From IMG/VR virus record IMGVR_UViG_3300025674_000315, positions 1 to 26,656 of that record: 26,656 bases of DNA; one strand, 5' to 3'. This DNA is from a virus. Under the pieces are notes generated by a model. That model was not told the DNA's origin. It ran no database searches and worked only from the letters and a program-made list of their open reading frames with translations. Of this stretch, positions 1 to 21,100 are shown in pieces. The translations under genes were made by a program, and so were the position numbers. Each line of letters begins with the position of its first letter. Within the stretch, counting starts at the first letter, position 1.

Positions 1-1881
1 GCGTTCACTCAATATACAACTCTAGATTTTGAAGAAATCAAGGCTTCGATCCGTGATTATTTGAGGTCAAACTCAAATTTTACTGATTTTGACTTTGAAG
101 GATCGAATATGTCGATCCTAATTGACACATTAGCGTACAACACATACGTTAATTCTTATAATGCAAACATGGTCGCTAATGAGGCCTTTCTCGACAGCGC
201 TACATTAAGAGAAAATATCGTTGCATTAGCAAGAAATATTGGTTATGTACCCAGATCACGTCGATCTTCAACTGCCAGAATCAGTTTTACCGTCGATTTG
301 GGTGCGGGACAAACAAAATCATCTTTGACCCTCAAGGCGGGTCTTGTGGCCATCGGAGATTATCAAAATACTAACTATACATTCTGCATTCCACAAGATA
401 TCACCAATCCTGTAAACAGTGGGCTTTGCAGTTTTACCCTTGATATCAAAGAAGGAACATATTTAACCAAAGAGTTTAGAGTAGACACGTCTCAAGCCAA
501 TCAAAGATTTGTCATTCCAAATTCTTATGTCGATACTTCTTCAATTGTAGTTAGAGTTAGAGACTCTGTTGGATCTACTAATACTAGAACTTGGAATTTA
601 GTTGATAATATCGTTGGTGTTAAAACAACATCAGAAACTTTCTTAATTCAAGAAGTTCAAGATGAAAAGTATGAATTGCTTTTTGGTGACGGACAACTGG
701 GTAAAAAACTTTCCAATGGAAATATTGTAAATGTTTCCTATATCACCACCAATGGTCAGGGTGGGAATGGTGTTCGTAATTTTGCTTTTGCTGGAACTAT
801 CGTTGATAATGATGGTGCAAATGTAACAAGTGGAGTTTCACAAATTATCACCGATATTCCATCAAGAAATGGTTCAGAAGTCGAATCTATATCTACAATC
901 AAAAATCTCGCACCACGGTTTTACGCTGCACAACATCGTGCCGTTACAGCTTCTGATTATGAAACTATTATTCCAACAATATACCAAAATGCAGAAAGTG
1001 TAGTTGCTTATGGAGGAGAATCTGCGGATCCACCTCAATTTGGAAAAGTTTTTATATCCATAAAACCAGTAAACGGCCAGTTTGTTTCTGATTTTGATAA
1101 AAGATTACTCTTAGATAAGTTAAAGGGATATTCTGTTGCTGGAATTAAACCAGAATTTATTGATCTTAAGTTTTTATATGTGGAACTTAATAGTTCTGTT
1201 TACTACAACAGTAATTCTATTCAAAATTCTGACGTTGTAAAAACTCAAGTAATTTCAAACCTAACAACATATGCAAATTCTTCTGATTTGAATAAGTTTG
1301 GGGGAAGGTTTAAGTATAGTAAAGCACAAAAAATTATTGATGATACCAGCACCGCTGTTACATCAAACATTACTAGAGTTAAAATGCGTAGAGATCTTGA
1401 GGCCAACACCTCAAATCCCGCTCAATATGAATTGTGTTATGGAAATGCGTTTCATAACAGAAGAGAAGGATTTAATATCAAATCAACAGGTTTTAATGTA
1501 GATGGAGTTCTTGGAACTGTCTACATGGCGGACGAATATGTTTCTCCAACAATGGGAAGACTATTCTTCTTTACAATAGGTGATGATCAGGTTCCTATTA
1601 TTATAAAGAAAAACGCCGGCACTGTTAAATATGACGTTGGTGAAATTCTTATAGATACAGTACGGATTGTATCCACTATTAAATCAGATAATATTGTTGA
1701 AGTGGAAGCGATTCCAGAATCTAATGATATTTTGGGGTTGAAAGATCTTTATGTGCAGTTGGCAATAGATAAATCCACCATTACCCCTGTATCTGATGTA
1801 GTCGCTTCTGGTGCAGACCTTTCTGGAACCAGTTTTGTTACAACATCTAGTTTTTCAAACGGCAAATACTATAGAGAATAA
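1..1881 (+). CDS. gp6: Baseplate wedge protein gp6, 5' end cut by window
   Basis: Baseplate wedge subunit of the gp6/J-like family, which in T4 forms the ring of dimers that ties wedges together around the baseplate hub. The reading frame is open from base 1 to the TAA at 1879-1881 (626 codons seen; T4 gp6 is about 660 aa), so only the first few residues are missing. Matches to T4 gp6 as I remember it: the N-terminal stretch DFDFEGSNMSILIDTLAYNT (near 91-150), the FGDGQLG ... YITTNGQGGNGV region (near 685-770), the AVTASDYETI motif (near 940-970) and the following KVFISIKP segment. The first in-frame alternative start, TTG at 61, lies inside the conserved N-terminus and is not the real start. 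The stop overlaps the next ATG by one base (TAATG), suggesting translational coupling with the gp7-like gene. Confidence 0.95.
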   Translation, partial: AFTQYTTLDFEEIKASIRDYLRSNSNFTDFDFEGSNMSILIDTLAYNTYVNSYNANMVANEAFLDSATLRENIVALARNIGYVPRSRRSSTARISFTVDLGAGQTKSSLTLKAGLVAIGDYQNTNYTFCIPQDITNPVNSGLCSFTLDIKEGTYLTKEFRVDTSQANQRFVIPNSYVDTSSIVVRVRDSVGSTNTRTWNLVDNIVGVKTTSETFLIQEVQDEKYELLFGDGQLGKKLSNGNIVNVSYITTNGQGGNGVRNFAFAGTIVDNDGANVTSGVSQIITDIPSRNGSEVESISTIKNLAPRFYAAQHRAVTASDYETIIPTIYQNAESVVAYGGESADPPQFGKVFISIKPVNGQFVSDFDKRLLLDKLKGYSVAGIKPEFIDLKFLYVELNSSVYYNSNSIQNSDVVKTQVISNLTTYANSSDLNKFGGRFKYSKAQKIIDDTSTAVTSNITRVKMRRDLEANTSNPAQYELCYGNAFHNRREGFNIKSTGFNVDGVLGTVYMADEYVSPTMGRLFFFTIGDDQVPIIIKKNAGTVKYDVGEILIDTVRIVSTIKSDNIVEVEAIPESNDILGLKDLYVQLAIDKSTITPVSDVVASGADLSGTSFVTTSSFSNGKYYRE

Positions 1882-4800
1882 TGATCGACACTAGTTTGCA
1901 AAAGATTCAGATCAACCAGGTAGTTCACAGCCAATTACCTTCTTTTGTTCAAGAGGAAAATCCTCTTTTCGTCGATTTTCTCAAAACATATTATACAGGA
2001 CAAGAATATCGTGGTGGAAATATTGATGTTGTCCAAAATTTAAACGAATATCAAAAAGTAGAGACTTTTAGTGGTAACGAAAATCTTATTGGATTTACCA
2101 CTTGCACTTCTGCAGTTACTTTTTATGATTCAACCATCAATGTTGTGTCTACTGATGGTTGGCCAGAAAAATATGGTCTTTTAAAGATCAATAATGAAAT
2201 TATCACATACACTGGAAAGACAAAAACGTCTTTTACTGGATGTGTTCGCGGATTTAGTGGTGTAGAAACTTTACATCATAGTTCAGATCCAGATCAACTT
2301 GTATTTTCACAAAGTTCTGCAGAATCACATAAAAATGATACTCAAGTAATCAACTTGAGTAACTTATTTTTACAAGAATTTTGGAAAAAGACCAAAGAAC
2401 AGTTTTTACCTGGATTTGAAGATAGACAATTAACCAATGAGGTAGATAAAGCTAATTTTTTACGTCAGTCTAGAGATTTATATTCTGCTAAGGGTACTGA
2501 TGATGCTATATCTATCCTGTTTAGAGCACTTTTTGCAAAACAAGTAGAAGTAATTAAGCCAATCGAATATCTTATTGCTCCATCGGATGCAGACTATGTA
2601 GTTGGTAATGATATTGTAGCCGAACTAATCAGTGGCGACCCATCAAAAATTATTGGACAAACTCTAAGACAAACAAATAACGATTTTGCTTCCGCTTCAA
2701 TTTTCAACGTAATAAGAAATCAAAAAAATGGAAGAAACTACTATATCATCAGTCTTGGTAAGGTAACTCAAAAAGGTGTCTTTAACATTACTGGAGGAAC
2801 TGCATTAACTAATAATGTTTCTTCGGGTTCAACCGTATTGACGGTAGATTCAACTCTAGGATTCCCAGAGTCGGGATTATTTTATGTTGGAGCTGGAATT
2901 ACTGTAGGAATAGCCACTTATACTAGCAAATCATCAACTCAATTTTTTGGTGTAACGGGAATTTCTTCTGCATATCAGGCCGGGCAGTTTGTTAGATCTT
3001 CGAACACGATATATTCCTACGAAGAAGGAGATATTAAAAAACCAGTCATTTTCAGAATGACGGCCGTAGCAAAAACATCTCCTCTTGATAATGCTGCTTT
3101 CTTATATCCAGGGGATATCTTAAGGGCCAAAAATCTTGGTAACTACTCTTTAGCCAGTAACTATAGGCTCAATAGTTGGATTCATAATGTCAAAACAACT
3201 TCCAATGTTGCAAAAGACATTGGAACAAATACCTCAAATATTGATATTGTAACAAATACAATTAATACTACAGATCCACATCTATTAAAACTTGGTGATC
3301 CAGTTACACTTGTCGATACAAGTTCTGCCATTGCACAGAATGTGGAAGGAACGGTGTCATCTGTTGTTTCTTCTAATTCTTTTCAAATTACTATTACCAC
3401 TGGTAGTTTGTCTGTAAATAGATCCTACAAAGTACGATTAAACACTATTTTTGCATCTTCAAATGAACCAACTATCAAGGTTGATAAATTTGTTGCAAAT
3501 GTTCAGAACACATACAGTGATAAGTTAAATGAAAATGTTTATGTGACTTCTGGTAGTTTACCAGCTTATAAAATTTACGCAACTAATAACAAAAAAACAT
3601 TTAGTGCTGGAAGTGTATCTAATAACTCAATTACTATTAATAGTCATGGATTATTTACTGGAGATCTTGTAAGATATAGTCCTGTTGGAGCTGGTCAAAG
3701 TTCTATTGTTGGTTTGACCACTAATGCAAATTATGCAGTAACTAGAATTGATGAAAATACAATAAAATTATCTCAAAGTATTAGTGACGCTTCTGTAAAA
3801 AGATTCCTGAACATTTCTAGTGCAGGAACTACCCATCAAATTATTCCTTCAAATCTGGCCGGAAAACAACTTTCACATCAGAACTTTTTGAGAAAATTTT
3901 CTGATACACCATCCTTAAATGAATACAGAAAACCACTTCAAAACGAAACTATTGGAATGTTTCGTAATGGAGTTGAAATTGTATCAAATAGATCTGGTGA
4001 TTCGATTTGGTATGGTGTCGTAAAAAATCTTGAGGTGAGGAACGGTGGATCTGAATATGATGTTTTATATCCACCAAATATTAATATTTCCGATTCTGTA
4101 GGAACAGGTGCTACTGCATATGCTATTGTTGAAAATGGGAAATTCGAGTCTATTGAAGTAATTTCTGGTGGTTATGATATTAAAAATATTCCACAAATAA
4201 CAATAACTGGTGGTAATGGCACTGGAGCAACAGCTGTACCTAGATTAAAGGAAACTTACACTACTAGATTCTTTAACCCAGATTTAGATGTAAATACAGC
4301 AACTGATAGAGTAACATTCCAAAACAGACATTTGTTTGATAATGGTGAGTCTGTTTACTATAAAAAAGCCCAGGGTTTTGCAGCAGTCGGTGGCCTAATT
4401 GATAACTCACTGTACTATTTGCATGTTGTTGATGATTTTGCCGTTCAGTTTATGTCATCATATGATGATGCTGTTGCTGGTATTAATCCAATTAACTTGA
4501 CTAGTAGAACTACTGGTACTAATACACTAACATCAACAAAGGTTAGAAAAGTCGTTGATAGTGTCGTCATAACAAGTAAAGGTTCTGGATACTCTAACAG
4601 AAAATCTGTTGTATCAAATTCAATCTATCCTCCTGTAGATTATACAACAGTCGATGATATTAACTCTGGAATTAGCACCTCAAATAATTTTATCTTCTTT
4701 AGAGATCATGGTTTTAATGATGGAGATCTAGTTGAATATAGATCTAATGGGCCAATTTCTGGATTATCTACAACACAGAATTATTATGTTTTACGACTCG

Positions 4801-7800
4801 ATGAAGATAGATTCAGGTTATCTTCTGCTGGTATTGGCACTACGACGACCAAACAAAATTACGACAGACGAGATTATGTAAAATTTGGTAACTCTGGTAC
4901 TTCAACACATACATTTAAATATCCAGACATTCATGTCAATATTGAAAGTATTAGTGGAGTTGCCAATACCGCATATTCATATCCAAGATTAAGACCAGTT
5001 TGTCAGGGAAATATTACACAATGTCCAATAACTTCTGTTGGAACTGGATATGGATCAACAGATACTCTTAATGTACATAGAAGACCAGACATAACTGTTT
5101 CTAATGGTTCTAGGGGTCTTATAGATGTTGTTATTTCCGATGGAAAAATTGTAAGGGCCTTTATTAAAGATGGAGGTGGTGGTTATGCCACACCACCAAC
5201 TATTGAGATTAGGGGTGATGGTAAATTTGCAAAAATTGTTCCAACAGTAACTAATGGTGTAATTACTTCGGTTTCTATTGTTGATTCTGGAAAAGATTAT
5301 ACTCAAGAAAAAACAACTGTTGTTGTAATCCCATCTGGTAGAGGTGCAAAGATAATTGCCAATATCAAGAAATGGGAAGTTGATTTCTTTTCAAAAAATA
5401 GAAAAAATATTAATGAAAATGACGATGGTATTTTATTACCAAGTCAAAATGAACTCTATGGTCTGAGATATTCTCATGCGTATGCATCAAGAAAACTAAG
5501 ACAAGTTCTTGATGACAATATTGAAAGTGATTTTAGTGAAAAGTCGTCAGTAACACATTCTCCTATTCTTGGATGGGCGTATGATGGATCGCCAATCTAT
5601 GGTCCATATGGATACGGAACTCCTACTGGTGGGGCTGTAAGGAGAATGGTTCCTAGTTACACTTTGGTATCTAAAGGAAATAGACCTCCAACTGGAGTAT
5701 ATCCATTAGGATTCTTTGTGGATGATTATGTTTATACTGCAGACGGTGACTTAGATGAATTTAATGGTAGGTTCTGCAGAACCCCAGAGTTTCCAAATGG
5801 TGTTTATGCGTATTTCTGCACCATTCAGGCCACTAATAGTTCTACCTCTCCATTTGTAAATACAAGAGAACCGGCGTTCCCATATATTATTAATGGATTT
5901 AAGTATAAAAAAGATGAGTTCAACTCAGATCCAGGATCTCTTCAGTCCTTGGATATTCTTAATAGTGGAGATCTTGTAAGAAATACTTATTATTATAAAT
6001 TTGGAGTATCGAATTCAAACTATGATTATCTTACAAAAAATCAGTTAGATGATACTCAGTTAATTGTAAGATCAACAAAACTTAGTGGTATTCACACTGT
6101 TACTGTTATTCTTCCTGGAGAAAATTATAAAGTTGGGGATAGAGTACGATTTAACAATTTAAATTCTGGTGGTAGTGGAGCTACTGCTAAAATTAAGACT
6201 CTTGTTGGAAAGGGATTATCAACTCTTACATATACTACAAAAATAGTACCAAATGTTTCTTTCCAGTACAAGGATAGAGTTGTAACTGGTATTGCAAGTA
6301 CTTCACATGGTCTCAATGATCAAGATATTGTAGTAGTTTCTGGTATCTCAACTGGGGAATTAAAATTCATTGAAGGTCCACATGTAATTTCTGTATCTTC
6401 AATTACTGGACGTTTGGATGAAACTGTTCCACCACAATCTTCCACTGGTATCACAACCACTATTAAATTGGAGATTGCAGGACCATCGGGCCAAATTGAA
6501 ATTGACGATACTATTGGAATTGGAACCGAAAGACTTACAGTTCTTGATGTAAATGAATCATTTAATCTTTACAGAGTTCGTAGAGAAACTGGATTTGCAA
6601 AAACTCATTTTGCTGGTGCGACAGTTCATTTAGATCAAAGAAAATTCAGTTATCCTGTTGGAGTTCAAACAAATTTAGTAACTAGAACAAATAGAAAACT
6701 AGTATTTAATCCTCAGTCCACAATTGGATTTGGAACTGCCGAGACTATTCAAAATATTGTTGGTATTGGAACAACAATTGTAGTTAGAGTTAAGGCCACA
6801 GATGGAACAGTATTAAATGATCATGATTTACCTCCATCGGGATCAACTGCGGATAACGCAATTAGTATTGTCAATCATGGATTTAAGACTGGACAAAAAT
6901 TAACGTATGGAGCTGGTCCAACTGGTGCAGCACTAACAGTTTCAAACAATCTTGATCTTTCAAATCCATTCCAATTAGTTGAAGGTCAATTTGTGTATGC
7001 GGTTAAAAAGTCCAATAATCTTATTGGTATCACAACTACGATCGCTGGTATTGGAACTACTACTACATCTCTTTATTTTAGTGTAATTGGAGAAGGAACA
7101 GAACACACATTTACTGAAACAAATAAAGGTTATTTGGGGCATGTTGAAAGATATGATGTATCTGTAAGAACAGTTCAACCGCATACACTAAAGACAGGCG
7201 ATAAAATAAAACTCGATTTATCTCCAAACACTACAGTATCAAAAACTATCGAATATGATACATTATCAAGAAAAACTCTCGTTGATGGGTATTATGTTTC
7301 TGCAGCTTCAACTTTTGTTGGTGTTGGTGTAACAAACTCTTTGGTTACAATTACATCTCATGGTTGGGATGCTGGTGATAAAGTTCTTTATGAGTCTGGC
7401 TCAACATCGGTTACTCCATTAGTTGATCGTGGGGAATACTTTGTTCAAAAAATTAATGACAATCAGTTTAGATTATCTACAAACTATGAAGATTCGGTAA
7501 GATTTGGTGGCACATACATTGGAATCACTAGTTTTGGTTCTGGTGTTCACAAATTATCAAGAATCAATCCACACATTGTTGCAACAAGAGGTCAAACTGT
7601 CGGATTTGCCGTTTCTGATGGATCCCTACAAGATCTGAAATTGGAATTCTTTGAAGATGAAAATTTTGTAACAAGATACGATGGTGCTGGTATTTCTACG
7701 GAAATTGTTAGAAGTGGAACTCCTGGAGTTTCTGGGGCCGTTGTTAATTTGAAACTAACAAACAATGTTCCAAGTCCTCTGTTCTATAAATTAACCCCGA

Positions 7801-10800
7801 TTAACTTGAACACTGTTGATGTTTCTAAGAGAGATACAACACCAGATAAAACTGTAATATCTGGATCAAAAATTATCATTGAGAACAGTGTCTATTCTGG
7901 TACTCATTCGATTTCAACAACAACCGTAGATAGATTTACATATCAAACTAAAAAACAACCAGAAACTAGTACATATACGTCATCTTCTGGTATTTCTACA
8001 TTTAAATACACAACAGGTTCTGTCAATGCTCGTGGTGGTATTAATGAAATTGACGTTAACTTTGGTGGTTTAGGTTATCTGAGAAATCCTGGAGTATCCA
8101 CAATTGTCACAGACACTGGTGTAAATGGTTTATTGCGATTATATGATTCTAGTGTTGGTAAAATTGGTGAATCTGAAATGTTGAAGATTGGATATGAATA
8201 TCCATCAGATAAAACAATTCAACCAAGTGTAGACCTACCCATTGTTGTAACCGTAAGTAATAATTTTATTCTTGACAAAGTTGGTGTTGTTACTGCTGGT
8301 AGAAACTATGTTTCTGCTCCAGATCTTATCGTTCCAGATAGGCCAGATGTACAACTGACATCTGAACTGAATGGTACTTCAGTTGGTAGCGTGACGGTTG
8401 ATGTTGTCGGAAGAGGATTTAATGAAGTTCCAAATCCACCAAGAATTATTGCGGTTCGTAATACTAATGGTATTGGTATTGTTTCTACCAGTTCAAACGG
8501 TGTTACAAACTTCTTAACATTGGTACAACCAATTGACGGTTGGAAATCTGATGGTTCTGATTTCCCATTTGCTGTTGGTGATAGAATTTTCGTTGAGGGA
8601 GTTGGAACTGCACAGACTACTTTTGCAACCAAGGGTGGATATAATTCCGAAAATTATGATTATGCATTCTTTACAGTAAGAAGTAGAACTCCATCTTCTT
8701 CACAAATTACCTATTCCATCGCCGGACTTGGTACAACGGGTGGAACTTTTGATCCAGATCGATCTGCTGGTAGAGTAATTAAACAAAAAGATCTTCCAAC
8801 TTTTAGTGCTCTACTGACACCAGAACCTTTCTTCTTTGGTGAACCAGTAACTTATGGTGCAAATGGCCGTGGATTTGTTCTTGATAATGAAGGATATAAT
8901 CCTGTAACTAATACACTAAGACTTAGATCATTAACAACTACATTGAAAAATGGTGATGTAATTAAAGGAAAATTATCTGGTGCTGAGGGAACTGTAAGAA
9001 ACGTATCTCAATTTGAAGATTTCTTCATCACAGACTTTTTCTCCGAAAGATCAAAAGGTTGGCAAAAAGAAACTGGAAAACTAAACAACGATTTCCAGAA
9101 AATTGAAGATAGTGATTACTATCAAAACTTCTCATATTCACTTAAGAGTGAAGTCCCATATGAGAACTGGAAATCGGCAGTTGACAGCATTGTTCATCCT
9201 ACTGGGTATAAGAATTTCTCCGACTTGATTATTAACTCACAACCCGAAGTTGGATTTGCCAGAAGTGAAGATTTAAAAGTAAAAGAAGTTGCATCTGATA
9301 CTAGCCTGTCTATTAATATTGATAATGTAAAATCTCTCTATACTAGAGATGACTTTGATATTGGTGGAGAAGAAGTTCTTTTCAACGGTATTTCTAAATT
9401 TATTACACTGAAAAATAGAAAAATTGCGGCCTTCATTAACATTATTTCTAATAAGGTCGATTTGATCGATGATATTTCACCACAATTTACTGGAATTGGC
9501 ACTACAACCTCTGCTTTAGTGGTTGGACTCAGTAGTTTTAGATTAACAAATTCTGGAAATCCTCTGTTTACCAAGAGTTTTAATCCATCGGATACTGGTG
9601 TTATTTCTGTAGGTTCTTCCGTTTTTAGAATTAACAATCACAACTTCCAAACAGGTGAAAGAATTAAATATGATCCAGGAAACGGAGTTTATGGAAGTAA
9701 CAGAATTGACATTGTTACTAGTAATGTGGTTCTTGGTGGTGTGTCTACAGATAAAATGCCTTCTGAGTTGTTTGCAATTAAGTTGAACAACAACCAGTTT
9801 TCTGTTGCTGGTCTTAAGACTGCCGCTGAAACTGGAGATGCATTAACATTCAATGGTGTTGGTTCTGGTTCTAATCACTCATTTGATGTTCTGAGAGCTG
9901 ATGATAGAGTTATTATTGAAATTGATGAGATCATTCAAGCTCCACTTTTCAAAAAGAAAGTATCTGTTGCCCTTGATGAGGCCGTAGGAATTGCATCTAC
10001 AACGATTAAAGTAGTCGGTGTTACATCAATAACTGGAAATGATCTCTTGAATATTGACAATGAAATCTTAAGAATTAAAAATGTTGGATTTGGTTCAACC
10101 AATGTTCTTTCTGTTGAACGTGGCATCTTTGGTTCTGTGGCTGCAGCACATACTGTTGGTGCTGCTGTTACAATGCGTGGTGGCAGTTTCCACATTGTAA
10201 AGGATGTAATTTATTTTGTAACTCCTCCATATGGTCCATCTGGTGTTGCCACAGCAAATCCTGGAGTATCAACTAATTCCACTTTCCAAGGAAGAGTATT
10301 TAATAGAAAAGATCCAACAACTAACTTTATTTTTGATGATATTTCTCAAAACTTCACTGGTGTTGGAAAAACATTTACTCTTCTTCAAGATGATGCGGAT
10401 GTAAGTGGTATTGTTACGACAGTTAATGGTCCAGAAGTTGTTAACAACGGAATTATTCTAATTAACAATATTCCACAAAGGCCAACCGTTGATTTCAACA
10501 TGGCCGAAAGAACTGATCCTGGTATTGGTGCTTCAATATTCTTTACTGGAGATGATCGAGAAAGTCTTCCCAGAGGTGGTATTGTAGATGGTTATTCCAT
10601 CGGAATTGGTTCTGGATATCAACCAATTGTAGCCGCGGCAGCAACTGCAATTATCAATGGTGCTGGTGCAATTGAAAGTGTTGTAGTGACTGGTGGTGGT
10701 TCTGGTTACCGTTCTGGCCCCGTTCCAATTCAGGTTTTAAACCCTCTCGGAATTGGATCAACCGCAGTTCTTCAAGCCACCGTTGGAACTGCAGGCACCA

Positions 10801-13523
10801 TTACAGGAATTACCACTGTGAGTGGTGGTAGTGGTTATGCAAGTACAAATCCACCAGTTATTGTGGTTGGTCTTGCAACTGGTTATTCTAACGTAAGTTA
10901 CAGTGGGGGAACTGGAAGTGGATTTAGAGCTTCAATAGTTGTCGGTACTGGTGGAAGTGTTGTTGATTTCCAGATTGTTGATCCTGGAATTGGATATAAA
11001 AATGGAGAAGTTCTTACAGTTGCTGGAATTCCAACAAACACAAGTGTTCCATTTATTCCACATACAATAACTGTAAATTCGATTACAACTGATGAATTTT
11101 CTGGATTCTCATTTGGTGAACTTTTACCATTAGATGATTTCTCTGATCAATTTGATGGTGGCCAAACCACATTTACTTTGACAAGAACAACAACCGCGAA
11201 AAATATCATTAACATCAATAGTGATGATACATCTGTAGAACCTGGTAATAATCTTCTTATATTCTTAAATGATGTATTACAACAACCAGGTCAGTCGTAT
11301 GTTTTCAATGGTGGCACCCAGATAACATTTACCGAAGCACCTAAGGCTGGTAGTAAATTACAAATTCTGTTCTTTAGAGGATCCAATGATGACGTTGATG
11401 ATGGAAATCCATTCCCAACAGTCAAAGTCGGCGATCTTTTACAACTGCAAAGACAAGGCAACTTCTTGCAACAACGAGAAAGAAGAGTAACTGAAATTTC
11501 TGGTGTTAAGAAAGCAGAAACTAATCTCTATAACGGGGTAGGAATTAATGATGATAAAACCTTCGAAAGAATGGTATCTTGGACAAAACAAACAAGTGAT
11601 TTGGTCCTTAATAATCAACCACTTACTAAGGCCAGGGTAAACTTAAATGCAAAGATTTTCCCAGTATCCTATATTATTCAAAATGTAGGCATAAATTCTC
11701 AACAAATCTATGTTGACAATGCATATCCATTCTTCAGTGTTCTTGACAATAGATCTACACCAAATGAAGTTCCAGGAACTGGCATTGAACTTGTTAAGGC
11801 TAATGTTGTTGACCGTGGAGATGCAACGGTTAGTGTTTCTGCTGGTGGAACAGTTGTAAACCCAGTCATCACCGATCCTGGCGCAGGTTATGAAACAGTT
11901 CCTACAGTTTCATTCGCTTCAACAATCCCACAAATTAAAGAGATTGGTAAAGTATGGACAAATAGATCATCATCCACTGACATTGAATATCAGGGTGTTG
12001 CAAGAAACATTTATGGTATTTTTGTTGCGGTTGGAAGTACAACAGGAATCAATACATCCACGGATGGAAGAACCTGGTACGATAGTGGAAACGCAACTTC
12101 ATTTGGTAATCTGAATGCCGTTGTTGGAATGAATACTCACACCGTTATTGTTGGCGCTTCTGGAACTATTGGATATTCTACGGATGGTAGAAATTATCAA
12201 CCATCTAAACTTCTTCAACGAAGAAATGTATTCCCAATCATCTTCTTCGATGACATTCCACCAACACAAACATTTAATGATGTTACATTTGGACAGTCGG
12301 TTGGAGTTGCAGTTGGTGCTGCTGGAACCATTGCTTTCACCAAGGCTGGTCAAGCTGGATTTGGTACTGCATTTGAAGTAACTCAAAAGGTTTCTTCCGT
12401 TAATCTTAACGGTGTTGGTGCGAATGGTAATGTATTCGTGGCCGTTGGTGAAAATGGAATTATTCTCAGATCAAACAATGGTGAATCTTGGAGTGGTGTT
12501 ACAACTAGCACTATTACAACAAATCTTAATCATGTACATTATGGCAATGGTCAGTGGATTGCTGTTGGTTCTGCTGGTACAGTAATTAGATCTTCTGATA
12601 ACGGTAGAAATTGGACTGTAGTCTCTGCTGGTGCAACATTTGATTTGAACAGAGTTGGTTATGCAAATAGTGTTTGGGTTGCCATTGGACAAAGTGGAAT
12701 GGTACTGAACTCTGTTGACACTAATAACTGGTATAAGAAATCTGTTGGAGTTGGAACAGATTTCAATGGCCTTGCATTTGGTGATAACAAGTTTGTTGCT
12801 GTTGGACTTTCATCGAACATTTACAGTTCTGAGTTTGCTGCAGTTTCTGCTGCAGGAACTGCGACCGTTTCAGCTGCAGGTACTATCACTGCAATTACCA
12901 TTAATGAACAAGGATTTGGATATAATCCAAATTCTCCAGTTGAGGTATTGGTTTCTCTTGAACCAGTCACAAGAGAAAGAATTACAAGTGTGAGTGTTGA
13001 GGGTGATTATGGTGATGTTGTTAGTGTTGCTTCTTCTGCAACGGGAATTAATACCACAAGTCCAATGTTGATTTTTGAATTGGATGCGGATTCATTCCTA
13101 AATCAGGCTGCATTTGGAAACATTGCAAAGTCTGGTATTGCATCGAATGATTACTTTATTGTTACAAATTCTGTAACAGGTGCTCCAACCACATCTATTA
13201 CAATTGGCAATAAACCAATTGGAATTGGATCTACTTTCTTAGATAATGTGTATCTTGTGGCTCAAAGGGATCAGTCCAACTCTGGTATTGTTACCGTTTA
13301 TTGTAACGTTCAAGGAATAACTGGTATTGGTACAACAACGTTTGCGCCAAGAATTGGTAAATATAGTTGGGGTAGACTTTACAGTTTCCAACGAGATAGG
13401 ATTAATCCAAAATCCTTTATATCCCAAACAAGTAATGGTTCTGTCGGTATTTCAACTGGCGCCTCTGTTGTTAGAATCAAGTCAATTTCTGAAAATTACA
13501 GTGACCTTGATCAGACAACATAA
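1881..13523 (+). CDS. gp7: Giant gp7-like baseplate wedge protein with modular insertions (3880 aa)
   Basis: Very large virion protein in the gene 7 position between gp6 and gp8. The first ~310 residues resemble the C-terminal domain of T4 gp7: LPSFVQEENPLFVDFLKTYY (~18-40), then QSRDLYSAKGTDDAISILFR (~197-216), then IIGQTLRQ (~257-264). A second block near 2355-2445, NGDVIKGKLSGAEG followed by WKSAVDSIVHPTGY (W2430), resembles the very next part of T4 gp7. Between these blocks are repeated beta-rich modules, GGxGY repeats and a YHYH domain (~1190-1345). After them come three DDxSxxF fibre-like modules, more GGxGY repeats, a BNR/Asp-box propeller (~3355-3655) and a C-terminal domain. The frame is uninterrupted. 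The ATG overlaps the gp6 stop by one base; only a weak GAGA precedes it. T4 gp7 is ~1032 aa, so this is nearly four times longer. The wedge role is inferred from position plus these matches; the N-terminal two thirds of T4 gp7 has no visible counterpart. Confidence 0.85.
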   Translation: MIDTSLQKIQINQVVHSQLPSFVQEENPLFVDFLKTYYTGQEYRGGNIDVVQNLNEYQKVETFSGNENLIGFTTCTSAVTFYDSTINVVSTDGWPEKYGLLKINNEIITYTGKTKTSFTGCVRGFSGVETLHHSSDPDQLVFSQSSAESHKNDTQVINLSNLFLQEFWKKTKEQFLPGFEDRQLTNEVDKANFLRQSRDLYSAKGTDDAISILFRALFAKQVEVIKPIEYLIAPSDADYVVGNDIVAELISGDPSKIIGQTLRQTNNDFASASIFNVIRNQKNGRNYYIISLGKVTQKGVFNITGGTALTNNVSSGSTVLTVDSTLGFPESGLFYVGAGITVGIATYTSKSSTQFFGVTGISSAYQAGQFVRSSNTIYSYEEGDIKKPVIFRMTAVAKTSPLDNAAFLYPGDILRAKNLGNYSLASNYRLNSWIHNVKTTSNVAKDIGTNTSNIDIVTNTINTTDPHLLKLGDPVTLVDTSSAIAQNVEGTVSSVVSSNSFQITITTGSLSVNRSYKVRLNTIFASSNEPTIKVDKFVANVQNTYSDKLNENVYVTSGSLPAYKIYATNNKKTFSAGSVSNNSITINSHGLFTGDLVRYSPVGAGQSSIVGLTTNANYAVTRIDENTIKLSQSISDASVKRFLNISSAGTTHQIIPSNLAGKQLSHQNFLRKFSDTPSLNEYRKPLQNETIGMFRNGVEIVSNRSGDSIWYGVVKNLEVRNGGSEYDVLYPPNINISDSVGTGATAYAIVENGKFESIEVISGGYDIKNIPQITITGGNGTGATAVPRLKETYTTRFFNPDLDVNTATDRVTFQNRHLFDNGESVYYKKAQGFAAVGGLIDNSLYYLHVVDDFAVQFMSSYDDAVAGINPINLTSRTTGTNTLTSTKVRKVVDSVVITSKGSGYSNRKSVVSNSIYPPVDYTTVDDINSGISTSNNFIFFRDHGFNDGDLVEYRSNGPISGLSTTQNYYVLRLDEDRFRLSSAGIGTTTTKQNYDRRDYVKFGNSGTSTHTFKYPDIHVNIESISGVANTAYSYPRLRPVCQGNITQCPITSVGTGYGSTDTLNVHRRPDITVSNGSRGLIDVVISDGKIVRAFIKDGGGGYATPPTIEIRGDGKFAKIVPTVTNGVITSVSIVDSGKDYTQEKTTVVVIPSGRGAKIIANIKKWEVDFFSKNRKNINENDDGILLPSQNELYGLRYSHAYASRKLRQVLDDNIESDFSEKSSVTHSPILGWAYDGSPIYGPYGYGTPTGGAVRRMVPSYTLVSKGNRPPTGVYPLGFFVDDYVYTADGDLDEFNGRFCRTPEFPNGVYAYFCTIQATNSSTSPFVNTREPAFPYIINGFKYKKDEFNSDPGSLQSLDILNSGDLVRNTYYYKFGVSNSNYDYLTKNQLDDTQLIVRSTKLSGIHTVTVILPGENYKVGDRVRFNNLNSGGSGATAKIKTLVGKGLSTLTYTTKIVPNVSFQYKDRVVTGIASTSHGLNDQDIVVVSGISTGELKFIEGPHVISVSSITGRLDETVPPQSSTGITTTIKLEIAGPSGQIEIDDTIGIGTERLTVLDVNESFNLYRVRRETGFAKTHFAGATVHLDQRKFSYPVGVQTNLVTRTNRKLVFNPQSTIGFGTAETIQNIVGIGTTIVVRVKATDGTVLNDHDLPPSGSTADNAISIVNHGFKTGQKLTYGAGPTGAALTVSNNLDLSNPFQLVEGQFVYAVKKSNNLIGITTTIAGIGTTTTSLYFSVIGEGTEHTFTETNKGYLGHVERYDVSVRTVQPHTLKTGDKIKLDLSPNTTVSKTIEYDTLSRKTLVDGYYVSAASTFVGVGVTNSLVTITSHGWDAGDKVLYESGSTSVTPLVDRGEYFVQKINDNQFRLSTNYEDSVRFGGTYIGITSFGSGVHKLSRINPHIVATRGQTVGFAVSDGSLQDLKLEFFEDENFVTRYDGAGISTEIVRSGTPGVSGAVVNLKLTNNVPSPLFYKLTPINLNTVDVSKRDTTPDKTVISGSKIIIENSVYSGTHSISTTTVDRFTYQTKKQPETSTYTSSSGISTFKYTTGSVNARGGINEIDVNFGGLGYLRNPGVSTIVTDTGVNGLLRLYDSSVGKIGESEMLKIGYEYPSDKTIQPSVDLPIVVTVSNNFILDKVGVVTAGRNYVSAPDLIVPDRPDVQLTSELNGTSVGSVTVDVVGRGFNEVPNPPRIIAVRNTNGIGIVSTSSNGVTNFLTLVQPIDGWKSDGSDFPFAVGDRIFVEGVGTAQTTFATKGGYNSENYDYAFFTVRSRTPSSSQITYSIAGLGTTGGTFDPDRSAGRVIKQKDLPTFSALLTPEPFFFGEPVTYGANGRGFVLDNEGYNPVTNTLRLRSLTTTLKNGDVIKGKLSGAEGTVRNVSQFEDFFITDFFSERSKGWQKETGKLNNDFQKIEDSDYYQNFSYSLKSEVPYENWKSAVDSIVHPTGYKNFSDLIINSQPEVGFARSEDLKVKEVASDTSLSINIDNVKSLYTRDDFDIGGEEVLFNGISKFITLKNRKIAAFINIISNKVDLIDDISPQFTGIGTTTSALVVGLSSFRLTNSGNPLFTKSFNPSDTGVISVGSSVFRINNHNFQTGERIKYDPGNGVYGSNRIDIVTSNVVLGGVSTDKMPSELFAIKLNNNQFSVAGLKTAAETGDALTFNGVGSGSNHSFDVLRADDRVIIEIDEIIQAPLFKKKVSVALDEAVGIASTTIKVVGVTSITGNDLLNIDNEILRIKNVGFGSTNVLSVERGIFGSVAAAHTVGAAVTMRGGSFHIVKDVIYFVTPPYGPSGVATANPGVSTNSTFQGRVFNRKDPTTNFIFDDISQNFTGVGKTFTLLQDDADVSGIVTTVNGPEVVNNGIILINNIPQRPTVDFNMAERTDPGIGASIFFTGDDRESLPRGGIVDGYSIGIGSGYQPIVAAAATAIINGAGAIESVVVTGGGSGYRSGPVPIQVLNPLGIGSTAVLQATVGTAGTITGITTVSGGSGYASTNPPVIVVGLATGYSNVSYSGGTGSGFRASIVVGTGGSVVDFQIVDPGIGYKNGEVLTVAGIPTNTSVPFIPHTITVNSITTDEFSGFSFGELLPLDDFSDQFDGGQTTFTLTRTTTAKNIININSDDTSVEPGNNLLIFLNDVLQQPGQSYVFNGGTQITFTEAPKAGSKLQILFFRGSNDDVDDGNPFPTVKVGDLLQLQRQGNFLQQRERRVTEISGVKKAETNLYNGVGINDDKTFERMVSWTKQTSDLVLNNQPLTKARVNLNAKIFPVSYIIQNVGINSQQIYVDNAYPFFSVLDNRSTPNEVPGTGIELVKANVVDRGDATVSVSAGGTVVNPVITDPGAGYETVPTVSFASTIPQIKEIGKVWTNRSSSTDIEYQGVARNIYGIFVAVGSTTGINTSTDGRTWYDSGNATSFGNLNAVVGMNTHTVIVGASGTIGYSTDGRNYQPSKLLQRRNVFPIIFFDDIPPTQTFNDVTFGQSVGVAVGAAGTIAFTKAGQAGFGTAFEVTQKVSSVNLNGVGANGNVFVAVGENGIILRSNNGESWSGVTTSTITTNLNHVHYGNGQWIAVGSAGTVIRSSDNGRNWTVVSAGATFDLNRVGYANSVWVAIGQSGMVLNSVDTNNWYKKSVGVGTDFNGLAFGDNKFVAVGLSSNIYSSEFAAVSAAGTATVSAAGTITAITINEQGFGYNPNSPVEVLVSLEPVTRERITSVSVEGDYGDVVSVASSATGINTTSPMLIFELDADSFLNQAAFGNIAKSGIASNDYFIVTNSVTGAPTTSITIGNKPIGIGSTFLDNVYLVAQRDQSNSGIVTVYCNVQGITGIGTTTFAPRIGKYSWGRLYSFQRDRINPKSFISQTSNGSVGISTGASVVRIKSISENYSDLDQTT
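3235..9885 (+). repeat. Array of diverged 'HG-x-GD' beta modules inside the gp7-like gene
   Basis: Protein-level repeats of ~75-90 residues. Each has a hydrophobic strand, then HGL/HGF with GD (or GE/GQ) two to four residues later, then V-x-Y, a variable stretch, Y-x-V, then N/D-x-F/I-x-L-S, and finally H-x-F or H-x-I. Clear copies begin near 3612 (SHGLFTGDLVRY), 4285 (RHLFDNGESVYY), 4675 (DHGFNDGDLVEY), 6845 (NHGFKTGQKLTY), 7325 (SHGWDAGDKVLY) and 9605 (NHNFQTGERIKY). Shorter or degenerate heads lie near 3235, 6280 and 7150. Copies differ strongly at DNA level, so the duplication is old. The same module occurs once in gp13. Confidence 0.75.
5451..5915 (+). other. YHYH-type domain within the gp7-like protein
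   Basis: Residues ~1190-1345 of the 3880-aa protein carry the signature of the YHYH family: GWAYDGSPIYGPYGYG at 1231-1246, preceded by a His-containing YSHAYASRKL segment and followed by LDEFNGRFCRTPEFPNGVYA and FPYIINGFKY. Two cysteines (C1299, C1313) flank the TPEFPNG turn and could pair. The family has no settled molecular function; it is found in bacterial extracellular proteins and in large cyanophage structural proteins. It sits in the middle of the module array, which suggests a surface-exposed position on the baseplate. Confidence 0.8.
11945..12840 (+). other. BNR/Asp-box beta-propeller near the C-terminus of the gp7-like protein
   Basis: Residues ~3355-3655 contain repeated blades of the form 'VAVG-x-x-G-x-I-x-x-S-x-DG-x-x-W'. 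Asp-box-like turns are STDGRTW (near 12057), STDGRNY (near 12178), SNNGESW (near 12471), SSDNGRNW (near 12591) and a degenerate NSVDTNNW (near 12708). A further blade without the Asp-box lies near 12290-12370. This gives about six to seven blades. Such domains in cyanophages are often labelled Ycf48/photosystem II assembly-like because Ycf48 is also a BNR-type propeller. Here it is part of a structural polypeptide, so a binding or scaffolding role at the baseplate surface is more plausible. Ligand unknown. Confidence 0.75.
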
Positions 13524-13550: not shown

Positions 13551-15155
13551 ATGCCCGCGATTATCTCTGATCAGTTTAGGATACTAAACGCTGCGAATTT
13601 CGTGGCTGGTGTTGCAAATACTGCAAACTCATATTATACATTCCTGGGTCTACCCAATTCTGGTGATGTGGGCCTGGGATATGGCACAACTGATTGGAAT
13701 ACTAATACTCCTGCACCTAAGGATGGTATCAAGGAGTATAATGATGATTATGATACTATGATCGCTCTCAAGAAATTGGGAACGGGTGATGTGAAAAGAA
13801 TGGTGAGAAAATATTCATGGACTGGGGGCACAGTCTATGAAATGTACAAGAGTAACTACACCAGAGATAATCTTTCACCACAAACTGCATCGACCAATCT
13901 TTATGATGCAAAATACTACGTTGTAAACAGTCAGTTTAAAGTTTATATTTGTATCAACAACGGACAAAATCCAACAAATCCTCTTGGAAAACAGTCTCTT
14001 GATGAACCAACTTTTACTGACTTAGAGCCAAAGGCCGCGGGTACTTCTGGTGATGGATATCTGTGGAAATATCTTTATACGATTTCTCCAAGTGATATTA
14101 TTAAATTCGATTCTATTGATTACATTCCAGTTCCATCGGATTGGGGAACGGGTGATACTACTGATGTTAAAAATGCATCTGTAGATGGAAAGATTGAAAC
14201 TGCATTGATTGTTAATGCTGGCGGCGGATATCAACCAATTTCCACCACCTTTAATAATATACCTATTCTTGGGGACGGTACTGGAGGAAAAGCATCAATC
14301 ACTGTCGATGCACAGGGTACAGTAAATGATATTGTTATTACCGATGGTGGTGTAGGTTATACTAGAGGAACTATTAATTTCTTCCCTGGCGCTCCAGGTG
14401 CAGAAACTGGTGGTCCTATTTCTGGACTTTCTGCAGTTGGTGTTGGAACAACATCAGTTGCTGACTTTGAGGTGATTATTCCTCCTCCTGGGGGTCATGG
14501 TTTTGATGTTTATAGAGAACTTGGTGCATACAGGGTTCTTTTATATTCAAGATTTGAAAATGATGCCACAAATCCAGATTTTATTGTAGGAAATGATTTT
14601 GCTAGAGTCGGTGTTGTTAAAAATCCAACAACTCCATCTGGAAGTATTTTAAATCAGTCCAGAGCTAGTGCTTTGGTTGGATTGAAACTGAGATCACTCA
14701 CTGGTGGTGACGTTACAAATACCACCTATACTGTAGATACTCCCGTTTATCAAACAATTGGTGTTGGATCTACTGCTGTTGGTTATGTTGCAAGTTGGGA
14801 TAGTGCAACTGCTGTTCTTAAAATTTACAATCCAGTTGGACTTGCATCAACTTCCTATGGATTTAGGATGGTAGATTTTACATCTCAAATTGGTGCGGGT
14901 GGTAGTTACGCAGTTGCTGGCCAAACTGGAGGTGCAGTATTGGGTATTGATACTAGTTTTGGTACTAGTGCTAATCCTGGAACTGCAACAACTGTTGGTA
15001 GTGCATTAGTTCAACTTGGTCAAAACTTTGTTGAAGGTGTGGCTGAACCAGAAGTCAAAAAATATTCTGGAGATATCTTATACATAGATAACAGGGCCGC
15101 TATTCAACGTAGTGCCAACCAGAAAGAAGACATTAAAATCGTTTTAGAGTTCTAA
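13551..15155 (+). CDS. gp8: Baseplate wedge protein gp8 with internal insertions (534 aa)
   Basis: Baseplate wedge subunit; in T4, gp8 dimers bind gp7/gp10 during wedge assembly. Visible matches to T4 gp8 from memory are the N-terminal SDQFRILNAANFV segment, DGYLWKYLYTISPSDIIKF with YIPVP shortly after (~165-195), HGFDVYRELGAYRVLLYSRF (~315-335) followed by FARVGVVKNPTTP, and the C-terminal SGDILYIDNRAAI ... DIKIVLEF, which aligns closely with the T4 C-terminus. At 534 aa it is about 200 residues longer than T4 gp8 (334). The extra length is at ~200-310, containing two GGxGY modules (NAGGGY near 14216, DGGVGY near 14343), and at ~365-500, a Gly/Thr/Ser-rich segment. It starts at the ATG 27 bases after the previous stop, behind a late promoter motif with no strong Shine-Dalgarno. 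Four bases separate it from the next gene. Confidence 0.94.
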   Translation: MPAIISDQFRILNAANFVAGVANTANSYYTFLGLPNSGDVGLGYGTTDWNTNTPAPKDGIKEYNDDYDTMIALKKLGTGDVKRMVRKYSWTGGTVYEMYKSNYTRDNLSPQTASTNLYDAKYYVVNSQFKVYICINNGQNPTNPLGKQSLDEPTFTDLEPKAAGTSGDGYLWKYLYTISPSDIIKFDSIDYIPVPSDWGTGDTTDVKNASVDGKIETALIVNAGGGYQPISTTFNNIPILGDGTGGKASITVDAQGTVNDIVITDGGVGYTRGTINFFPGAPGAETGGPISGLSAVGVGTTSVADFEVIIPPPGGHGFDVYRELGAYRVLLYSRFENDATNPDFIVGNDFARVGVVKNPTTPSGSILNQSRASALVGLKLRSLTGGDVTNTTYTVDTPVYQTIGVGSTAVGYVASWDSATAVLKIYNPVGLASTSYGFRMVDFTSQIGAGGSYAVAGQTGGAVLGIDTSFGTSANPGTATTVGSALVQLGQNFVEGVAEPEVKKYSGDILYIDNRAAIQRSANQKEDIKIVLEF

Positions 15156-15159
15156 GAAC

Positions 15160-18100
15160 ATGCCACAAGAGACAAACCTCAACGTAAGTCCTTATTTCGA
15201 CGATTTTAATGAGGACAAAAATTTTAATAGGGTACTGTTCAAGCCTGCAAGTCCAATTCAGGCCAGAGAATTAACACAATTACAAAGCATTCTTCAAAAT
15301 CAAATCGAAAGATTTGGTCAACATTTTTTCAAAGAAGGATCTCAAGTAATTCCAGGCCAGATCGCATATGATCCACAGTATTATGCAGTTGAATTAACAG
15401 ATACCTTTTTTGGAGTAAGTGTTTCGCAATATGTTGACCAGTTAGTTGGTAAAACTATTAGAGGGGAAACCTCTGGAGTAGAAGCTAGAGTTGTAAACTT
15501 TATTACAAAAACTCAATCCGACAGAGGTGCAAATACTCTCTATATTAAATACATTAAATCTGGAAATGATTTTGCAACAAGTGTATTTCAGGACGGAGAG
15601 AATTTAATTTGTTCTACGGATATTGAATATGGGAATTCAAGGATTATTGCAAATAATCCTTTTGCATCATGCATACCCTCAAATGCAACTTCTACAGCTT
15701 GTGCAGCCTCTATTGAAGAGGGTGTTTATTTTATCAGAGGATTTTTTGTAAAAGTACAACCAAGTACCGTAATTCTTGACCAGTATAGTGCAACTCCAAG
15801 TGTAAGGGTTGGACTTTTTATTGAGGAGAATCTTGTAACTGCATATGCAGATGACAGTCTGTTTGATAATGCTGGTGGTTATTCTAATTTTGCTGCTCCT
15901 GGAGCAGATAGACTTCAAATTAGAACCACACTGATTAAGAAAGATATTACAGAATTCAACGACGAAAACTTCGTTGAGTTGATGAGATTAGATAATGGCA
16001 AACTTGAAAAGTTTGTAAAGAAAACGGATTATAATTTAATTAGGGATGAACTGGCCAGGAGAACATATGATGAAAGTGGAGATTATTATGTAAAACCATT
16101 CCAGGTTACTGTTAAAGAGTCATTAAACGACAGAACTGGAAATGGTGGTGTATATCTATCCAATCAGAGAACGTCACAGGGTCAATCACCATCAGATGAT
16201 TTGATGGTATATAACATCTCCCCTGGAAAGGCGTATGTTAAAGGATACGATATTGAAAAAATTTCTTCTACACTTATCGATGTAGAAAAACCAAGAACTA
16301 CAAAAACTATTTCTAGTGCAGCAATTCCTTTTGATACTGTATCTAGTGTAAAGATTAATAATGTTTATGGTTCACCTTTTGTTGGTTTTGGGACTACCGC
16401 TACAATTAGTCTCAGAAGTGAGAGAATAACCACGGACGGCACAGCTCCTGGGATTGAAGTTGGTGTTGCTAAAGTTTATGACTACAAACTTGAAGCCGCA
16501 GCTTATGCCAATGATGCAAGTAAGTATGAAGTATACTTATATGATCTTCAAACATTTACCACAATTACAGTAAGTTCTGATGTAACTCTGACAACACCAG
16601 TTCGTGTTCAGGGTGCTAGAAGTGGTGCAACGGCCTTCCTTAAAAATAATGTCAGTTCTAGTAAGTCATTAACACTGACTGATACTTCTGGAACATTTAT
16701 GGTGGATGAGCCACTTATTATCAATGGCATCAATCAAAATTATGTTATCACATCTGTAAGAGAGTATAGTCTCGGAGATATTAAGTCTGTACAACAACAA
16801 GTAGGTATCAATACATTTACTGCAGACCTTGAATTAACTTCCAGATTCAACCTTGCTCCTTCTGGAACAAACTTCACTATTGGCACCGCAGGAATTGTAA
16901 CTGCACCTGGAAATAGATTTGCTGTAGGAATCAAAACTGGTGATATTGTAACTTACAACAGAACTGGATTCTCTGTTCCAACTTTTAACAGAGTGAGTGC
17001 AATTGGTGCTGATGGATCTACCCTAACTCTTGTTTCTCTTGGATCTAGTGTAACTGGTGTATGTGATGGAGGCCTAACAACTACCGAAATTCAGACCAGT
17101 GATTTTACTCTGGTTAGACCACAAATTTTAAATGCTAGAGATTCTAGATTGGTAAGTAGATTACCACAACCATATATCTCATCAGTTGATCTTTCTAGTG
17201 CGAATATTCAAATTAGAAAACAATATACATTGAACATTTCCAGTAACAGAGGAAGTGTTACTATTGAAGATCCAGATCTTTTCTTCCAACCTTTTGATGA
17301 AGAAAGATACAATCTTGCGTATTCCGATGGTACTGTAGAACCACTCACAAGTGCAAAGGTATCATTTAACTCAACATTCAAGAGTGTAACTCTTAGAGGT
17401 CTTGGTACTGCAACCGATACTAATGCGGTTCTTGTGGCCACACTTAAGAAAATTAATGTCAAATCGAAGACAAAGAATCTCACAAGATGCAGTAAGACTG
17501 TTATTAACAGATCTAAGTATGAATATTCTGGATCAACTGGGACTTCCTTTAATAACGGTTTAACTTATAATGCAGTTTATGGAACAAGAGTTGAAGATGA
17601 CCAAATTTGTTTGAACGTTCCCGATGCCATTAGAGTTCATGCTGTATTTGAGTCGTCCACAACTTCATCACCAATTCTTCCATCACTCACACTGGTAAAT
17701 AGAAGTGCAGCACTTACGGATACCATTCAGGGTGAAATTTTAATTGGGTCTAATAGTGGTGCTGTTGCCAGAGTTGTAAGTTCAACAACTTCAACAGTTG
17801 ATATTGTTTATAAGAATGAATTACGATTTACGGTTGGTGAGCCAGTAGTTTTCCAAAATTCTGGAATTAGTGGAACCGTATCCGTAATTGTTATTGGTGA
17901 TAGAAATATTCTAGATAACTTCTCATTCGACAATGGTCAAAGAAAAGAGTTTCTTGATTACTCTAGAATTGTAAGAAATGCAGAATCTGCAGAACCATCA
18001 AGACAACTCGCTATTATTTACGACCACTATATTGTGGATACTGGTGCTGGTGGAGACTTGATTACGGTTAACAGTTACTCCCCAGATAATTATGAAAGAG

Positions 18101-21100
18101 ATTTACCAGTTGTTCTGGCCAATCCAGCTTCAGATTTCATTGACATTAGACCAAGAGTAAAGAATTATAATCCATCAAGTGACACAGATTCACCCTTTGA
18201 GTATGATTTCCGTGATTTTTCACAATCTGGAACAGGTGTACCTAATATCCTTGTAACTGAAGAAACTCTTACACTTGGATATTCATATTATCTTGGAAGA
18301 ACCGATAAACTTCTTTTGAATAAAGATGGATTCTTTGAAGTTAAAAAAGGTTCTCCTTCAGAAAATCCAATCGCACCAGAAACCCCCCAAAACGGTTTCG
18401 TTGTTGGAACAATTTTCCACAAACCATATGTAAGAAGAGCATCGTCTGATAGTAAACTTATTCTCTCCAAACATAAGAGATATACGATGTTTGACATCGC
18501 TCGTTTGGAACAAAGAGTGAAGAATATTGAGTTCTATACTCAACTTTCTCTTCTTGAGACGGATACTGCCAATTTAAATATCAAAGATGCTACTACAGGT
18601 CTTGATAGATTCAAGTCTGGTTTCTTTGTAGATAACTTCAGAAGTCATGGAGCTCATGACATTTCAAATCCAATTTTTAGAGCATCTATTGATAAGGCCA
18701 ATGGATATCTGAGACCATCGCACTATACAACTGGTCTTGATCTTCTTCTCGGATCTTCTCAGTTAATTGGCATTGGTACTACAGCAAATCCAAATGCGGA
18801 CCTCACACAGGTTGCAGATCTTCAATCAAATTCACTGAGAAAAACTGGTGATGTTGTTTCTCTTAACTATACTGATAAGGCCTTTATCAAACAAAATTTT
18901 GCAACTACAACCGAGAACGTAAACCCATTTGCGGTCATTAACTGGGTTGGTATTGTTGGACTCAATCCAACATCAGACGTTTGGGTAGATGAAAAGAACC
19001 TTGCGGTCAATAATCTTGAGTTTGAGGGATCTTATGAAACCCTCATGGGAACTCTTTCAATCGATCCCAACACTGGATTATCACCAGTTGATTGGGGTTC
19101 ATGGGAAGAGGAGTGGAGTTCTGTTGATTTTTCATCCAGAGAACTTCTTAGAGAAACAAATACAGAAGTAATCAGAGGAAGTACTGGTTGGAGTAGAGGA
19201 TTTACATCTGGTGGCCAACAACTGCCCACCCAGAATGCTGGCCTAGTTTCAAGAACCCGCAACTTTACTATGAGAGATACTACGGATATTACATCCGTAG
19301 AAACAACCAACACTACTGTTGGTTTGACTAGAAGTGGTATTCAGTTTGGTATCAACGAAAGAGTAGATACACAAAGTATCGGTACACGACTTGTAAGTCG
19401 AGAGATTGTTCCATTCATTAGATCTAGAAATGTTGAGTTTGTTTCAAACAGAATCAAACCAAGAACTCAGTTCTATACATTTTTTGATGGTGAAAATGTT
19501 ACCCAATATGTAACACCTAAACTCCTTGAGATCACAATGACTCAGGGTGTGTTCCAAGTAGGTGAAACTGTTGTAGGTAAAATGCCTAGTGCAGCGGACA
19601 ATAGTGGGTCCTTACCAGAAATTACCTTTAGAGTTGCTCAGGCCAATCATAAATTTGGTTCATATGATAGTCCAACGATTGTGTATGCAGTAAATCCATA
19701 TTCAGATACCGTTGGAATTAGTTCTGTTTACTCGGCAACCAGTTCAATTCTCAACATCGACACTGGATCACTTCAATTACAAGTTCTCGGAAACTTTAGT
19801 GGTTATGCGGCTAAAGGAATGAGACTCACTGGTCAAACCAGTGGCGCTGAGGCCACAGTGAATGACATGAGACTCATCACTGATGAAAAAGGAACCCTTA
19901 TTGGATCATTCTTTATTCCCAATATTAGTGAGTCTATAACTGCACCTCAGTTTGAAACTGGTACAAGAACCTTCAGAATCACAAGTTCTCCAGTTAATTC
20001 TCTGAGTCCCATTGATAATCCTTCAACCGCAGAAACGGTTTATCGTGCAGAAGGTAATCTTGATACTTTCCAAGAAGACACACTGAGTCTGAGAAATGCT
20101 GATATTCAGAGAGAGACTTTTACTGACAGCACAGTAAGATCTCAAACTGTAGATAGAGTCATTGAGACTCAGGAATTTACAGAAAGAACAGTTTCACAAA
20201 ACCAGTGGTATGATCCTCTTGCACAGTCATTTGAAATTGTTGAAGACAATGGTGTATTTGTAACTGGTATCGATGTATTCTTTGAAAGTAAGGATGATGC
20301 AATTCCAGTAACATGTCAGATCAGAACCATGCAAACTGGTCTGCCAACAAATACGATTGTTCCATTTGGTGAGGTTGTTTACGAACCATCTCAAGTTAAT
20401 CTTTCTAGAGATGGAACTGTACCTACTAGATTCACATTCCCATCTCCAGTATATCTTGCTGGTAAGAATGAATATTCTGTCGTTCTCCTGTCGGCCTCCA
20501 ACAACTACAAGGTCTTCATCGCAGTAATGGAACAGGAGGATATTACAACTGCCTCATTACCAGAAAGTGAGAGAACAATCGTTTCTCAACAACCATACAT
20601 GGGATCCCTGTTCAAGTCCCAGAACGGTTCTACATGGACGCCTGCACAGTTTGAAGACCTTAAGTTTACTCTTTATAAGGCTCAGTTCGTTCAGACCCCA
20701 GGAACTCTTAAACTGTATAATCCAGAGTTAGGTGTTGGCCAACAGAATCATCCTAAACTGAGAAGAAATCCTCTGGAGTTCTTGACTCAAGAGATTGTTG
20801 TTGGTCTTGGTTCTACTGTTGTAACTAGAGATTTTAGTGTTGGATCTAGGTTCTCTCAAGTTGGAAATAGAACTGCAGAAGGTAACTTAGTTAAGTCTCT
20901 TGGTGCAATTAAGATTAACACTTCTGCAACTGAAGCTGGTGGAATTACAACCAACAGTGTTGGTACTGGATTAACTCCATCTGCGGCTAATTTCACATAC
21001 ACGGGTGTTGCTTTAACATCAATCACGGGTGATGGAACTGGTGCGATTGCAAATATTCAAGTCGTTTCTGGTTCTATTGGAGTTGTAACTGTAACTTCTG

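Follow-up and report, generated by a model that had tools for sequence, protein, structure and literature searches.

A T4 gp7-type baseplate wedge core, probably in two pieces, within a 3880-residue cyanomyophage protein

The 3880-residue ORF described here is very probably the gp7 of its phage, with the wedge core of T4 gp7 present in two pieces. It lies in a window (the whole stretch of DNA analysed, 26,656 nt) that, by ORF and profile annotation, covers a cyanomyophage baseplate region, with the following genes:

1-1881: gp6 (profile phrog_219)
1881-13523, + strand: 3880-aa gp7 ortholog flanked by gp6 and gp8; ORF intact
13551-15155: gp8 (PF09215)
15160-22701: DUF4815 ('VrlC') protein (PF16075)
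25205-26362: neck protein (phrog_211)

The gene for T4-type gp7 lies directly between those for gp6 and gp8, and the 3880-residue ORF occupies just this position; the order gp6, homologue of this ORF, gp8 is shared by the window and most of its relatives. The ortholog is 3880–3891 aa long in close relatives (independent assemblies), and in the nearest annotated record, that of Synechococcus phage S-CAM9, the equivalent protein (3884 aa) carries the label baseplate wedge initiator or subunit. The organization of the protein is as follows:

1908..2054, + strand: core helix 1, residues 10–58 (T4 ~645–690); profile alignment, 49% identity to distant relatives
2055..2354, + strand: small hairpin insertion of ~100 aa separating core helices 1 and 2, residues 59–158, an RG-type module; missing from compact relatives
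2355..2600, + strand: core helices 2–3 with the KG motif, residues 159–240 (T4 to ~765); profile matches
2601..2786, + strand: N-side strands of the domain V barrel, residues 241–302 (T4 ~766–821); profile and model
2787..3074, + strand: RG module and strands, residues 303–398; module HMM and model
3075..8831, + strand: large insertion, residues 399–2317, of HG and GGxGY beta modules plus YHYH; module HMMs
5544..5834, + strand: YHYH domain, residues 1222–1318; PF14240, E 1.4e-23
8832..9020, + strand: C-side beta segment, residues 2318–2380, possibly a second copy of the barrel module; poorly conserved
9021..9245, + strand: C core, residues 2381–2455, with the W..V..HP-G segment (T4 ~836–897); profile matches and conservation
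9246..13520, + strand: C-terminal extension, residues 2456–3880 (1425 aa); no T4 counterpart found

By module HMMs the protein has six copies of the HG module, ten of GGxGY and three of RG; repeated modules and a YHYH domain had been read from the sequence alone. Within the C-terminal extension, residues 3421–3660 (12141–12860) contain repeats of the type FVAVG..G.I..S.DG..W that appear propeller-like by eye and are mostly missing in P-TIM68, P-SSM2 and S-T4. Related modules occur in two other genes of the window. Residues 2–196 of gp8 (13551-15155) align with T4 gp8 9–212 (E 1.2e-13) and are followed by gp7-type GGxGY modules at residues 210–272, and it seems that gp8 has been decorated with them; the neck protein (25205-26362) has a gp7-type HG module at residues 108–186, and part of it matches the gp7 profile phrog_2885.

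The sequence-only reading had proposed that residues ~18–310 and ~2355–2445 resemble parts of T4 gp7. Profiles of the N and C blocks were made from separate alignments of 18–19 cyanophage and related proteins, and compared by hhalign with a reference profile of eight aligned T4-type gp7 sequences. The N block matches T4 719–821 (probability 96.7%, E 3.7e-10), with window residues 190–302 paired with T4 724–821, and the C block, at window residues 2345–2453, matches T4 810–897 (93.4%, E 2.4e-7). Joined in order, the blocks align with T4 645–897 at E 2.9e-14, beginning at window residue 11 and T4 residue 645, in agreement with the proposed N block of residues ~18–310. In Pfam terms the matched region of T4 comprises the gp7 helical domain (643–689) and domain V (Gp7_5th, 766–861), and the helical core with its KG motif (T4 ~645–760), the domain V barrel and the W..V..HP-G segment can all be recognized. 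The T4 matches of the two blocks overlap by ~12 residues, both including T4 810–821, whereas ~2040–2050 residues separate them in the window. Thus both segments match gp7, and their proposed adjacency in T4 and wide separation here holds (2235 residues from the KG to the HP motif, compared with 146).

Pairwise hhalign E-values are approximate, and we therefore give greater weight to controls of block order and window position. First, joining the blocks in reversed order gives E 1.3e-10, almost no gain over the N block alone. Secondly, 15 of 16 overlapping ~330-aa windows covering the remaining protein have a probability of 1.2% or less against T4 gp7, and the one exception (residues 2321–2650) contains the C block. 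Thirdly, when a six-relative profile was searched against all PDB chain sequences the two best hits were T4-type gp7 (2e-5 and 3e-4), with the C segment at 862–894 in the better one; T4 gp7 itself matches phrog_2885 at the KG segment (E 1.3e-4). In a survey of ORFs from 156 sequences no copy of either block turned up in any gene but gp7, and the block order is never violated.

These observations, together with the gene position and the structure match described below, contradict the view that this is an unrelated structural protein resembling T4 gp7 by chance or through common repeats, which we regard as extremely improbable, even though single-sequence phmmer searches of the PDB with either block gave nothing useful and no gp7, and plain HMM searches of the window with the T4 domains Gp7_helical, Gp7_5th and Gp7_6th gave no match. 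It is because of the poor yield of the single-sequence searches that profiles are needed, and their composition matters. When the alignments were restricted to close relatives, whether of the window or of the 861-aa relative L058, the profiles match T4 much more weakly (mostly 0.2–47%, with the exception of window residues 190–300 at 96%); the T4 result therefore depends on diversity in the alignments. The Pfam family PF23786 (Baseplate_wedge) scores 29.6 bits with the N block alone, against a cut-off of 27, and 22.2 bits, below the cut-off, with the whole protein. No counterpart of T4 residues 1–640 was found in any window of the 3880-residue protein, whose core begins at residue ~10, and T4 domain VI (920–1012) has neither a Pfam match nor a profile match after the C segment.

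Conservation refines the position of the second block. Identity to distant cyanophages is 49% in helix 1, 44% in helices 2–3, 43% in the YHYH domain and 44% in residues 2381–2455, but 28–31% in the arms and only 23% in residues 2318–2380. We therefore take 2381–2455 as the C core and reject residues 2355–2380 as part of it. The resemblance of ~2355–2445 to gp7 thus stands in part, with the boundary moved to 2381, and the NGDVIKGKLSGAEG stretch quoted in the sequence-only reading, which falls in residues 2318–2380, lies in the less reliable part of the C block.

Structure prediction used natural sequences, namely L058 and window residues 150–1349. The AlphaFold2 model of L058 is confident in its beta parts (~90 over most of 250–600) and weaker in the helices, and its two best Foldseek matches among 350,542 PDB chains are T4-type gp7. 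Residues 248..600 of L058 superimpose on gp7 767..847 (81 residues, 1.8 A, Z 10.2; only the ends of these ranges are reported), a barrel span reaching from the N block into the C block, as opposed to a model in which the blocks fail to pack together. In the insert region of the same protein (L058:1584-4166), residues 373–488 match a fragment of the T4 tail sheath protein gp18 (Z 8.9, 2.4 A). The model of window residues 150–1349, which does not include the C block, is mostly of low confidence (mean pLDDT 54).

The topology of the barrel can be read in two ways. In one, a single barrel is physically split by the insertion, which we modestly favour. In the other, which is possible though on balance doubtful, the N side already holds a complete barrel and residues 2318–2380 are a second copy, such that the arm lies between the two and no domain is split. 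Residues 241–398 of the window model match the T4 barrel with no C block present, the strands near 370–396 may represent closure of the barrel in that model, window residues 2310–2385 are similar to the barrel found on the N side in relatives (E 2.7e-5, 74%), and T4 810–821 is matched by both blocks; given the fit of residues 241–398 and the similarity of residues 2310–2385, the arm may instead directly follow a complete barrel. However, the fit of the window model is worse (Z 6.7–6.8, 2.6–3.0 A) than that of L058, which reaches the C block, the N-side and C-side barrels of the window show no match to one another (0.2%), and residues 2318–2380 are poorly conserved. Coupling analysis of limited depth (150–201 sequences, effective number 70–102, 213 columns) found pairs of N and C residues to be no commoner than expected, with recurring pairs at 243-2387/2389/2390 and 291-2388 that would fit a C-core strand lying beside the barrel. 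Under either topology the insertion site is in the T4 interval ~821–850, towards the end of domain V. The suggestion that one loop of a compact domain has been expanded is thus supported in part, and is qualified by the match of the C-block-free model to the barrel and by the similarity of the C-side segment to the N-side barrel of relatives.

In the relatives where both blocks are readable, each is kept once and in order, and the distance between the KG and HP motifs forms a graded series. It is 145–146 residues in T4-type phages, 168 in Ochrobactrum phage vB_OspM_OC and 177 in Nitratidesulfovibrio phage SRB7757; 270 in BUCT-ZZ01, 311 in pf16 and 403 in DLP6; 442–461 in Pelagibacter and Methylophilales phages; 619 in Cr30 and 874 in phiM12; and 1159 in S-CRM01, 1658 in S-PM2, 2235 in the window, 2301 in P-SSM2 and 2787 in P-RSM4. 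The range is 166–2787 in the 199 relatives measured outside the T4 set, with compact relatives at 166–189. Among close relatives of the window (57–76% identity) the spacer is nearly constant at 1996–2006, and it is 2156 in two more distant relatives. Because the compact form is found in T4-type phages, OC and SRB7757, it would be the simplest ancestor, on a tree with weak deep support. In the 6603-aa gp7 of P-RSM4 (L012:18168-37979) ~500 aa lie between the first two core helices, making the hairpin a second site of growth.

The protein has in common with T4 gp7 (PDB 5IV5, 5HX2) the place of its gene, the core helices, the barrel of domain V, the HP-G segment and the block order. T4 gp7 differs in that ~640 residues precede its core and domain VI follows it, neither of which was detected in the window protein, which in turn adds the ~2000-aa insertion, the ~100-aa insertion and the 1425-aa C-terminal extension. 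The compact gp7 proteins of vB_OspM_OC and SRB7757 share the helical core, the barrel and the HPAG segment, but are without the large insertion. The cyanomyophage gp7 proteins of phrog_2885 (S-CAM9, P-SSM2, P-TIM68, S-T4) have the same gene, architecture and modules as the window, although insert and C-terminal lengths vary between clades.

In the baseplate wedge trimer a gp7 chain joins two gp6 chains. Vibrio phage XM1 has a 242-residue gp7 ortholog, gp17, that builds the core bundle together with two gp16 chains and grips the tail spikes by a loop and its C terminus (PMC10457771). By homology to T4 and XM1, we propose that the conserved core of the window protein (10–58, 159–240, 241–302 and 2381–2455, equivalent to T4 gp7 645–897) would fold and dock with gp6 as in T4 and XM1. 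The ~2,000-residue insertion, a series of small beta modules with a single YHYH domain placed late in the domain V barrel and ahead of the C segment, would emerge as an arm on the outward side and may assume the peripheral roles of the N-terminal ~640 residues of T4 gp7, i.e. contacts with neighbouring wedge proteins and fibre or receptor attachment. XM1 gp17 would be a functional parallel, differing in its size of 242 residues and in having spikes that are separate proteins. As there are six gp7 copies per T4 tail (PMC3004832), the baseplate would carry six such arms. The huge arm foreseen from the sequence is present as an insertion of that size; its projection is putative, the arm model having a mean pLDDT of 54.

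It is also conceivable, if unlikely, that the arm is mainly a host-binding device and not a structural one, providing six long adhesins built into the wedge, with the YHYH domain and small barrels binding surface glycans. No other part of the arm is as well conserved as YHYH (43%), YHYH domains have been tied to host recognition (PMC7029224), and one HG module shows weak similarity to the beta barrel of an endosialidase. Against this, the constant arm length in close relatives (1996–2006) suits a structural role too, and the two regions of the window model that resemble small barrels do so at a middling level, in matches dominated by unrelated proteins; binding of surface glycans by the arm is putative.

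T4 Gp7 has been stated to be absent from cyano- and pelagimyophages and apparently substituted by VrlC (PMC7029224), and gp7 has been listed among the non-cyanophage core genes (PMC3037559). Our results support the presence of gp7 in cyanomyophages, hidden by insertions, and contradict the statement of absence (PMC7029224). We also reject VrlC as a replacement for gp7: no stretch of the DUF4815/VrlC protein (15160-22701) is similar to T4 gp7, gp9, gp10 or gp12, and PF16075 matches that ORF and not the 3880-residue one. The identity of the gene is already suggested by annotation, as the P-SSM2 and S-SSM7 records name it gp7; what is new is the split core, which is not described in the papers found, and the correction of the published absence. 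Labels often given to the cyanomyophage gp7 gene are structural protein, VrlC and hypothetical. We note that in ACG-2014h the gp7 label is on the DUF4815 gene and the VrlC label on the true gp7, and that the gp7 of Pelagibacter phage HTVC008M (NC_020484.1 33453-36176) is labelled 'head closure Hc2', as is phrog_3465; for HTVC008M this label is apparently wrong.

A core baseplate gene can thus be located in very abundant marine phages, the cyano- and pelagimyophages, from which one comparison reported it absent, and core boundaries are now given inside proteins of 600 to 6,600 residues often annotated as hypothetical, VrlC or structural. The relatives provide a graded natural series of a single chain enlarging at one site, and the baseplate architecture of these phages becomes directly testable. 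Growth of a baseplate core domain at one site may possibly be a general mechanism, such that marine T4-like gp7 proteins would have expanded this interval from ~145 to ~2,800 residues using a kit of beta modules shared with gp8 and the neck protein, the wedge chain itself would form the baseplate periphery, and the separate peripheral proteins of T4 would have been covalently replaced.
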